Shown one piece after another: positions 13,542 through 16,262 of a DNA stretch of 51,125 bases; position 1 is the first letter of the stretch; each line of letters starts with the position of its first letter. The stretch is from Thamnocephalis sphaerospora (Eukaryota > Zoopagomycota > Zoopagomycetes > Zoopagales > Sigmoideomycetaceae), in contig KZ992466.1 of NCBI GenBank assembly GCA_003614735.1, forward strand, positions 1-51,125. Direction: 5' to 3'. Made by a program: the position numbers and the translations under genes. The notes under the pieces were generated by a model. That model worked only from the letters and a program-made list of their open reading frames with translations. It made no database searches and was not told the DNA's origin.

Positions 13542-13580
13542 CTACAAGATGGTACACTTTTTCTTCTTGGCCTTTTTCTC
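13542..13580 (-). other. polybasic CaaX prenylation motif
   Basis: The last codons read [17 protein letters not shown]. The cysteine is fourth from the end, with two aliphatic-compatible residues and a final Leu. By known prenyltransferase rules this favours geranylgeranyltransferase I. The adjacent lysines would support binding to acidic membranes. Confidence 0.8.
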
Positions 13581-16262
13581 GGCAGCTTTCCTTAGAATCT
13601 CTTCTTTTTCTTCTCTCAGCTGGTCAGCTATTCTTCTTTGCTCCTCTACTTGCTCCTCCATTTGCTTCATCTTTTCTCCAGTTTGGAGGCTTACCAGCCT
13701 CAGCCGTTCCGCCATCTCCTCCGCCGCTTCCTTTGCCAGCTCTGCTTGCTGCCTTTCCTGCTTGGCCTGCTTGGCCTGTGCTTCCGCTTGTTCGTGGTTC
13801 GCCACTGCTTCATGCATTGCCGCCTCCATTTGCTCTCTTGCCTCTTCGGCCGCCTTTCTTTCTGCTTCTGCTTGTCTTCTTGCTGCCTCTGCCTCCATTC
13901 GCCTTGCCTCTGCCTCTGCCACCTCTCGCCTTGCCTCCTCCTGCAAAGATGTTTCTTCATAGTATCCGCTATCCACCGAGGTCTGCTTTTCTTTCAGCTC
14001 GGTTTGCTCTATTTCCATTTCGTCTTGCAGCTTTGCATTTTCCTCGCCCGTGGTTTCTGCATGCAAACACATTTGCTCTGCCACACCATGATTTCCTTTT
14101 GCTTTTGCCAGCTCTTCTTGTCCCTCTTCTTGTGCATGCTTCATGGCCAGTTCCTGCTCAATCTGCTCGATATTTTTGGCCTTGTACCAATCCATTTCTT
14201 TGGAAAGCTGGCGATTTAGATGGGCAAGCTCATTGTCGTAGCTCCATCCAGCATTGTGGATAAGCATTTCTATACATAAAGTTAGCACCGCACGGTGCGC
14301 AACATGTTGGAGGCGCGATCAGAGTACCCACCGCTAGCGCGCCTTTCGAAACTGTCACTGGCATCTTTACGGACATCCTCCATTTGATGAGAGTACTGGT
14401 AGTCGGGAGCCGCGTCTATCTCGTCCATTTGCCGTTTAAAGCAGGCTACGGTGTACTCTGTCAGAATCTCCAGCTGCGTGCGGGAGAATGCGTTCAAGTA
14501 TTTGCAAAGCTGCTTTTGTAGCATTTCTCGCATTTCCTGATAAACCTCGGCGTGATAATTTCGGGCGCCCTCATCAAACGCGGCTTTTGGGAGGCGCGCA
14601 TAGCATAATACGATGCATTAGCAAGCGATTGTCTACGCTGGATTGCCCTATCGGAGCCCGCTTACCAATTGCATCGGCCAGCATCTTTTCGGCTCGCCTT
14701 CCTGCGCCTTCCACCAGCATTCCAGCGCCAGCCAGCTCTGCCATGTCATAAACGTCTTTTTTGAATCTAGACTTTACCAAGCTGTATACCTTTCCGCAGC
14801 GGTGCTGAGCTAGCCATGTCTGCTGTACTGGTATGTCCAGCTCCTTGTCGTCCAGAATTGTATCCTTTGAATCAAACACAGTTAGCTACCCATCAACATT
14901 GCGCTCACCGGTCAACACACCCACCCAAATTCTCGAAGCGTATTGGGGGAATCCGTCGATTGGGATGGTTTGCTGGCCGCGAGCCTTGAATATGTAATTG
15001 TCGTGGCTCTCGTCTGTAAATCTAAGCCAACATAGTCAATGGCTTGGCTACTACCCACAAGCGCTTGTAATCTTACCGAGAACGAAGCCGCTCCACTGCT
15101 TCTTCAAACCGCCGCGGCACAGATTTCCCCTGTGGCAATATCTCGACGGTGCAGTCAAAGTAATCGGAAAACGTGCTGTCCTTGAAGCCATCTGGCTGCG
15201 CGTGCTAGAGCGTCAAGTACACTGTATAACAGTATCTTTGCCATATCGCACGCAATAAGCTACGCACCTTGGCCATCCTATTCCAAATCCTGTTTATAGC
15301 GAAGCGAATGTCATCGGCATATGCCTTCACTGAGACTTGATTGGTAGAGTCATGGAAAACGAAAAAGAGCAGCGTCTTTTGACTTTTGGGCACAGGCGGG
15401 CCGTGTGAGCTGACTGCAGCTGACTGCAGACCAACACGCGATTACCCCAGGACACCCACTTGCGTGACAGTTGAAGGTTCGCTCCAAACACAGTTTTGAA
15501 CACTCCAGTGGTTGCATCGCTGAAAAAATTGACGGTCGGCTCGTTCAAATTGATGACCAGCACCTCTGCGGTGGCTAGCGAAAACAACGCACTCCTACGC
15601 CTGATAGTCTGCAGGGGACGTAATGAATACCATGGCAGTGAGCAAGGTGTGTAGACGCCTTGGAATCTGCTTGTGTGTGCGACTAACTTTATCTTCGTCG
15701 CGCTCCCGACCATCTACGCCCTCGACGTCCATAACCAAAATGTTTTTGCCTGTACACTTCCCCATCCATATACCTGGCGTTGTAACGGTGTTAGCGCTTT
15801 CCATATCGTGCAATCCAGCGCGATTAGCCCCATGACTCATACGCTTTGGTTGATACTCATGGATTGGCCATAATATCAGCGCTGTTGTTTCTTACCTTGT
15901 GCTGTCTGTTGTGTCTCTGACGTGTCTACTATGGGAAAGGTCGTACCAAACAGACCGTTCAGCAACTCACCTACAATAGCAAGCGATTCAGTGAGCATGT
16001 ACTGACGAAATATATGCCATAACAGTGCGTGCGTCTATTACTTACTCTTTCCGCTACTTTGCAGACCAAAAATCGCAACGACGTGATAGTCGAGGCCGCA
16101 GTTGGACATTTCCCAGTCATGGTTGATTGCGTAGCTTATCTCGCTGACGTGCAGTCGCAAGCCAGCGTTAGAGACCGCGCCTCTTATGCAGCCGCATAGT
16201 TGATAGACTCACGCCAAACGACTGTTGCCATCTGTAAAGTGAACAATGGTATCGTGTCCCAT
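13542..16262 (-). CDS. SEY1/RHD3-like dynamin-family GTPase with CaaX tail
   Basis: Multi-exon gene, about 690 residues. The start ATG at 16262 opens [16 protein letters not shown]. After a short intron the GTPase domain follows: [18 protein letters not shown] (G1, split by an intron after the Lys codon), [11 protein letters not shown] (G2), and [16 protein letters not shown] (G3, matching Sey1 DVEGxDGRERGED). The next exons give [17 protein letters not shown] and [10 protein letters not shown], then [10 protein letters not shown] at the G4 position, where Sey1, atlastin and GBP have Arg-Asp and this has His-Asp. DESHDNYIF and the helical middle part also follow Sey1/RHD3, which fuse ER tubules. 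The C-terminus differs: instead of two transmembrane helices and an amphipathic tail there is a long Glu/Ala/Arg coiled coil (last 235 residues) ending [11 protein letters not shown]. That is a polybasic CaaX box whose final Leu predicts geranylgeranylation, as in guanylate-binding proteins. Function is inferred to be membrane tethering or fusion. Confidence 0.88.

Follow-up and report, generated by a model that had tools for sequence, protein, structure and literature searches.

A Sey1-type GTPase of Thamnocephalis sphaerospora with a predicted coiled-coil tail and CaaX end in place of the membrane hairpin

Results and discussion

A Sey1-type GTPase with a hairpin-free tail

We identified a gene of the Sey1 type in a 51,125-nucleotide stretch of the genome of the fungus Thamnocephalis sphaerospora (Zoopagales, Sigmoideomycetaceae; contig KZ992466.1, positions 1 to 51,125; hereafter the window). 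The gene lies on the minus strand of 16262-13542 and consists of 11 exons, with the ATG at 16262 and the stop codon at 13542-13544. The predicted protein joins the G domain and proximal helical bundle of Sey1 to a helical tail of 240 residues that carries a CaaX box at its end and contains no membrane segment. It is probably a Sey1 paralogue in which everything beyond the proximal bundle, transmembrane hairpin and tail included, has given way to a coiled coil, with a CaaX end in three paralogues (this one included), and it would act as a lipid-anchored, GTP-switched tether or coat. According to a survey, eukaryotes have Sey1 or atlastin, both of which consist of a G domain, a helical bundle, two close transmembrane segments and a tail (PMC9804665; this and the other sources cited by PubMed Central (PMC) number were available in part, and statements based on them are limited to those parts).

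An initial annotation of this DNA had assigned both the GTPase and the helical middle domain to the Sey1/RHD3 proteins. The first assignment is borne out by a match to Pfam RHD3_GTPase (PF05879) of 235.6 bits over the complete profile (1-245 of 245), compared with 18.8 bits, below the cut-off of 21.1, for a guanylate-binding protein (GBP)-type G-domain profile. The solved structure nearest by sequence, and apparently also by fold, is Sey1 of Candida albicans (5ca8/5ca9), and Candida Sey1 is the only solved sequence found at 1e-3 in a single-sequence search. The second assignment stands for the first third of the middle domain and fails for the remainder. The match to Sey1_3HB (PF20428; 45.3 bits) covers only profile positions 4-139 of 419, so a complete long three-helix bundle is not present. 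Sey1 of Syncephalis fuscata (P0093) covers positions 3-403 of this profile. The Pfam and Sey1_3HB scores were computed on a 677-residue version of the window protein.

The tail matches its earlier description as a coiled-coil-like C-terminus with a polybasic stretch and C-T-I-L, both of which can be read directly, and with no hydrophobic segment. The maximum 19-residue Kyte-Doolittle mean past residue 330 is 0.33, so two transmembrane segments are not predicted. AlphaFold2, run on exon 11 alone as a single sequence, gives long helices at residues 6-56 and 70-240 of 241 (mean predicted local distance difference test score, pLDDT, 83.9). Threonine at the a1 position of a CaaX box is polar yet tolerated, as in CTIS of human GBP1.

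Gene model and membership of the last exon

The gene model was obtained by hand translation and with a purpose-written spliced aligner using a Sey1 profile. The first profile contained seven rows, one of them the hand-made model of the window gene itself (C43), and is partly circular for that reason. The second consisted of seven Sey1 proteins of other fungi and no Thamnocephalis rows (the independent profile). The paralogue models were built with the first profile. The internal splice sites are unchanged with the independent profile, including the last intron (14332|14269). The sole exception is the start of exon 6, at 15382 with the independent profile versus 15409, two positions that are 27 nucleotides apart and in frame; the public model of the window gene, P0001, has 15409. 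This model, a 412-residue protein named 'RHD3/Sey1, partial [Thamnocephalis sphaerospora]', was identified by protein search.

The coil exon, exon 11, is supported as part of the G-domain gene by a Sey1 match that resumes past the last intron, by an exon pattern shared with paralogues and by a splice junction in a public model, in keeping with the initial annotation. The match extends within exon 11 to about 14100 with the first profile. With the independent profile it ends at 14213, about 19 residues into the exon, and is followed by a meaningless jump; the start of exon 11 there faces WSYDSEYASL of Mucor Sey1 (facing by eye). The 252-nucleotide exon ahead of the last intron is found in the window gene and in eight of the ten other loci of clade A (described below) and C188 that reach this point, using the profile that contains C43. 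It is found in seven of ten loci with the independent profile, where the C144 alignment stops inside the exon. This exon is split 137+115 in C95, and in C505 (L028, 351-979) the otherwise common last intron is absent and the exons are fused. Public model P0010, of the paralogue C50, splices the junction homologous to 14332|14269. P0010 continues into the coil and possibly past it, into a fused secreted-type sequence.

A downstream exon encoding a transmembrane pair had been named as an alternative end of the gene. We scanned the minus-strand frames of 13700-11200 and, by eye, found no Sey1-like membrane pair. An open reading frame (ORF) at 12486-13457 contains a hydropathy window of 2.02 (VFQAIIVLGRWLCTVVAAV) and has no Pfam match; the highest value in a short frame at 13461 is 1.68. 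Both were rejected by eye as Sey1-like pairs. A donor-like GTAAGC occurs near 13694 inside exon 11, and the frame past this site remains open and coil-like.

The working model encodes 664 residues with no internal stops and has ten GT-AG introns of 50-122 nucleotides each. An earlier version with a 30-nucleotide first intron (exon 2 acceptor at 16182, 677 residues) was dropped, since spliced alignment placed the acceptor at 16143, giving a 69-nucleotide intron. With this acceptor, the length up to the P-loop, counted by eye, equals that in the paralogue P0002. All features below are on the minus strand, with the basis of each in parentheses.

16213..16262, minus strand: exon 1, start codon 16262-16260 (spliced alignment)
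16046..16143, minus strand: exon 2, 98 nucleotides, holding most of G1, GLQSSGKS (spliced alignment)
15896..15970, minus strand: exon 3, 75 nucleotides, switch I/G2 region (both profiles)
15688..15773, minus strand: exon 4, 86 nucleotides, G3 (both profiles)
15460..15608, minus strand: exon 5, G domain (both profiles)
15268..15409, minus strand: exon 6, G4; the start may be 15382 (spliced alignment)
15077..15195, minus strand: exon 7, 119 nucleotides, G domain (both profiles)
14925..15021, minus strand: exon 8, 97 nucleotides, end of the G domain (both profiles)
14666..14864, minus strand: exon 9, 199 nucleotides, beginning of the Sey1 three-helix bundle (Pfam and both profiles)
14332..14583, minus strand: exon 10, 252 nucleotides, proximal Sey1 three-helix bundle (Pfam and both profiles)
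14270..14331, minus strand: last intron, 62 nucleotides, GTGGGT...TATAG, phase 1 (spliced alignment)
13542..14269, minus strand: exon 11, end of the Sey1 homology, then the long helical tail and the stop codon 13542-13544 (both profiles)
13557..13577, minus strand: polybasic stretch KKAKKKK (direct reading)
13545..13556, minus strand: CaaX box C-T-I-L (direct reading)

Elsewhere on the minus strand of the window are an ORF with a kinesin motor (8954-11206; PF00225, 249.7 bits) and an ORF with collagen repeats (6071-7465; PF01391, 56.5 bits), the latter in a fungus.

GTPase motifs and the paralogue family

The window copy has altered GTPase motifs. Its switch I reads QTAQG versus QTTKG in the canonical fungal rows, a change of the switch-I threonine to alanine, and its G4 reads VFHD versus V(I/V)RD, a change of RD to HD. 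Since these two changes predict weak hydrolysis, the window copy is expected to hydrolyze GTP slowly or not at all. G1-G4 are intact in the CaaX-ended paralogues C95 and C338. G2 and G3 are damaged in C50, another member of clade A.

The window gene belongs to a large family. Matches to PF05879 occur on 19 contigs of the 14,455,036-base assembly, and Sey1 searches add C505, C73 and C298. Four public members (P0002, P0003, P0009 and P0016) lie on contigs shorter than 10 kb, apparently outside the searched assembly. Because some contigs carry just 5' or 3' halves, we counted the family by its G domains. The genome of this mycoparasite was sequenced after amplification from single cells or from small pools (PMC6784888).

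The 23 Sey1-type G-domain rows of Thamnocephalis fall in the tree into clade A, with 11 rows including the window gene (100/99), clade B, with 11 rows (100/100), and C188, which sits beside the Sey1 of other fungi. A split of 100/99 separates all fungal rows, including those of Thamnocephalis, from five non-fungal ones (Capsaspora, two amoebae and two plant RHD3). The exon lengths 75-86-155-118-119-97-199-252 are common to clade A, with differences that are mostly multiples of three; the pattern also occurs in C188, as far as its two pieces reach, and is similar in clade B. In clade B, 7 of 11 members have lost the DxxG motif and 2 of 11 have an incomplete P-loop; C487 is without the P-loop glycines and lysine. 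The members of this clade (C148, C340, C289, C250, C224, C483, C291, C18, C123, C487 and C298; loci L013, L017-L023, L025, L026 and L030) are candidate pseudo-GTPases.

Long branches leave the order and date of the duplications, and of the split from Sey1, uncertain. Monophyly of all 23 Thamnocephalis rows has a p value of 0.057 in the approximately unbiased test (p-AU), and that of clades A and B together 0.295. When clade B and most of the outgroup rows are removed, C188 again moves toward the other fungi (83/59), and a grouping of clade A with C188 is not rejected (p-AU 0.334).

The initial annotation had also raised the possibility of a missing link between ER-fusion enzymes, those of the endoplasmic reticulum (ER), and the GBPs. 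This idea is not sustained: the rows group with fungal Sey1 at the split given above, and Sey1 is nearest by sequence and apparently by fold. No GBP or atlastin rows are in the trees, so the rejection of a GBP link rests on profile and fold rank. Judged by its sequence, the window protein is an offshoot of Sey1 with a GBP-like layout.

Among the public homologue matches listed, Syncephalis is represented by one row and Basidiobolus meristosporus by two. The public Thamnocephalis models P0001, P0002, P0003, P0008, P0009 and P0016 all end close to this last intron and therefore lack the coil exons.

Tails of the paralogues

A CaaX end is found in 3 of the 14 family models with a readable last exon: the window gene (CTIL), C95 (L009; GGCIIA) and C338 (L016; GGCIVM). 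By the usual rule, CTIL would favour geranylgeranylation, and CIIA and CIVM farnesylation. Among other ORF ends of at least 60 codons in the window and the fetched loci, most of which are surely not genes, 13 of 1223 fit the motif (16 of 1226 with the three), a background of about 1%. The binomial P for 3 of 14 is about 4e-4, and 9e-4 if four clade B ends read by eye (C289, C224, C18 and C123, none with a CaaX box) are added; these values are indicative, since the motif definition is loose and was fixed after the three ends were known. We found no CaaX end among the 209 public homologues listed, partly the best 120 of 3709 matches; the 209 include truncated Thamnocephalis models, and 13 of them are shorter than 600 residues.

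The tails of most paralogues are coiled-coil-like by eye, that of C144 being the exception. The tail of C575 is hydrophobic (1.83), that of C73 nearly so (1.54), and C50 has an internal segment (1.84); the rest are below 1.5. C575 (L024) and C73 (L029) have similar glycine-rich hydrophobic tails, IAVSAAFCAGPVTGLVAGGVVALGKLLF and IVVGATCINPLLGAATGGIVTLGRWIFK. The genome contains matches, at family level only, to prenyltransferases of the beta type (PF00432) and alpha type (PF01239) and to the ICMT type (PF04140).

Search for a canonical Sey1

A second, standard Sey1, which the initial annotation had suggested looking for, was not found. Four search routes of limited sensitivity, run without a positive control for the hairpin, identified no canonical Sey1 C-terminus (distal bundle and hairpin) in the incomplete 14.5 Mb assembly. 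Mucor Sey1 gave no match to the assembly past residue 477 at E<=0.01, and residues 412-767 of Dimargaris Sey1 gave none at E<=1. The distal part of Syncephalis Sey1 matched through its residues 2-47 only, on C291 (E 0.002); this query missed the homologous stretch of C188, which indicates limited sensitivity. The pattern L-G-W-N-E occurs at two places in the assembly, neither of them Sey1.

The family member nearest to canonical Sey1 is C188 (L027:1-6000). Its G domain is 64% identical to Syncephalis Sey1. The facing half, which is 44% identical and likewise has canonical Sey1 as its closest relative, continues as an open, coil-like frame for more than 700 residues. The frame from 582 to 2881 resembles a repetitive coil. 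The contig begins with a perfect inverted repeat of 43 nucleotides (1-43 / 632-674). This repeat and the facing order of the halves make an amplification chimera likely, and that the two halves form one gene is our inference. A query joining them returned no Thamnocephalis proteins in the best 120 of 3709 public matches.

Yop1-type genes are kept in the genome. Searches for a GBP family and for the Lunapark zinc ribbon gave no match in the Thamnocephalis genome, and in each case the control query matched nowhere either.

Possible function and alternative explanations

We propose that the CaaX cysteine is prenylated and that the polybasic stretch KKAKKKK helps it bind membranes. In this superfamily, G domains form pairs when GTP is bound. 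The lipid-anchored coil would thus tether or coat internal membranes reversibly, switched by GTP, in a mode like that of farnesylated GBP1 rather than that of a hairpin fusogen. The window copy may stay bound to GTP for long periods or play a regulatory part, in partnership with siblings that are intact, for instance C95 and C338. As a first guess, the target membrane would be the ER, by descent.

Several observations weigh against a coil-for-hairpin replacement with lipid anchoring. The gene, its splicing and its tail are predicted from the DNA alone. Beyond the last intron the match to the independent profile is short, and P0001 reads through that intron, ends inside it and does not contain the tail. 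The changes in G2 and G4 could mark decay, and the CaaX end is present at only three of the 14 readable C-termini. No window of at least 1.6 after residue 450 is found in 8 of 196 public homologues of at least 600 residues either, so hairpin loss by prediction alone is not unique, and these may be bad models. Amplified single cells were the source of the assembly, and C188 in it looks chimeric; C188 also groups with other fungal Sey1 and not with clade A or B. Relative to the non-fungal rows, clade A separates first, ahead of clade B and of every other fungal Sey1 (92/77). The truncation of P0001, the altered motifs and the fit of about 1% of other ORF ends to the loose pattern would agree with a CaaX end that is a coincidence or artefact, whether the true transcript ends where the public model does, within the last intron, or the gene is a duplicate in decay. 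We regard this as improbable, given that the independent profile splices the intron with Sey1 homology beyond it, that the paralogues share the exon pattern and P0010 splices the homologous junction, and that, besides the uninterrupted ORF here, CaaX ends occur in two siblings whose GTPase motifs are intact.

It is also possible, though rather unlikely, that the coiled-coil proteins still perform the ER fusion or tethering of Sey1, with a lipid or a hydrophobic tail taking over the part of the hairpin. This would fit the failure to find a canonical C-terminus in the searched assembly, the apparent run of C188, closest to other fungal Sey1, into a coil of its own, and the retention of Yop1-type genes. 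However, that assembly is partial, with four public members apparently outside it, and sensitivity was limited, so a standard Sey1 may simply be missing; C188 is an inverted and probably chimeric contig; and more than 20 G domains, with 7 of 11 in clade B lacking DxxG, are unlike one housekeeping enzyme. Hairpins are in addition thought to be necessary for fusion by atlastin and Sey1, which counts against such a role. Placement of the window gene in the GBP family, by vertical descent or transfer, is extremely improbable on the profile and fold ranks, even though a G domain, helical stalk and CaaX box make up the layout of human GBP1, 2 and 5 (PMC8565484, PMC10859415).

Comparison with other GTPases

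The window protein resembles Sey1/RHD3 in its full RHD3_GTPase domain, its proximal three-helix bundle and its best match among solved structures. It differs in that the bundle ends at 139 of 419 and is followed by a coiled coil and a CaaX box, with no hairpin. With vertebrate GBP1, 2 and 5 it shares a large G domain, a long helical stalk, a CaaX box in some paralogues only and membership in a multigene family. However, it belongs to another lineage by profile and fold rank, its stalk is a remnant of the Sey1 bundle plus a coil, and an immune role is not implied. For human GBP1, 2 and 5, acquisition of the CaaX box is reported to date from the ancestor of GBP1/2/3/5 (PMC10859415, PMC8565484).

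Hairpin-free atlastins occur in the silkworm, and one of them, BmAtlastin-n, with a G domain and a coiled coil and without transmembrane segments, is an independent case (PMC4926086). It differs in belonging to the atlastin lineage and in its reported antiviral effect, and a CaaX box is not mentioned in the available part of that source (PMC4926086). Dictyostelium Gnbp/GBP is likewise a dynamin-superfamily GTPase with an anchor that departs from its family. It mirrors the window protein, since this GBP homologue has a transmembrane end and lacks a CaaX box (PMC8565484, PMC12040241). We did not find a Sey1 lineage with a CaaX box among the matches listed in searches of the open-licence PMC literature, and the main text of PMC6784888, as available, does not mention 'RHD3', 'GTPase', 'RNA-seq' or 'transcriptom'.

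Significance

A broader scenario, which we consider doubtful, is that Thamnocephalis is without any hairpin Sey1 and that the gene became its own GBP-like superfamily, with coil stalks, interchangeable membrane ends (CaaX, hydrophobic or none) and many degenerate G domains gathered in a large clade, for use in parasite-host membrane recognition or in defence against invaders inside the cell. If true, a fungus would have arrived at the GBP design independently, starting from an ER-fusion enzyme.

The replacement of the hairpin by a coil in Sey1 paralogues, several of which carry a lipid-anchor signal, would constitute a natural experiment on the role of the hairpin in fusion. It would reveal a large family that is mostly cut short in public annotation near the same intron, and would show a second route to a GBP-like architecture, one that starts from a fusion GTPase.
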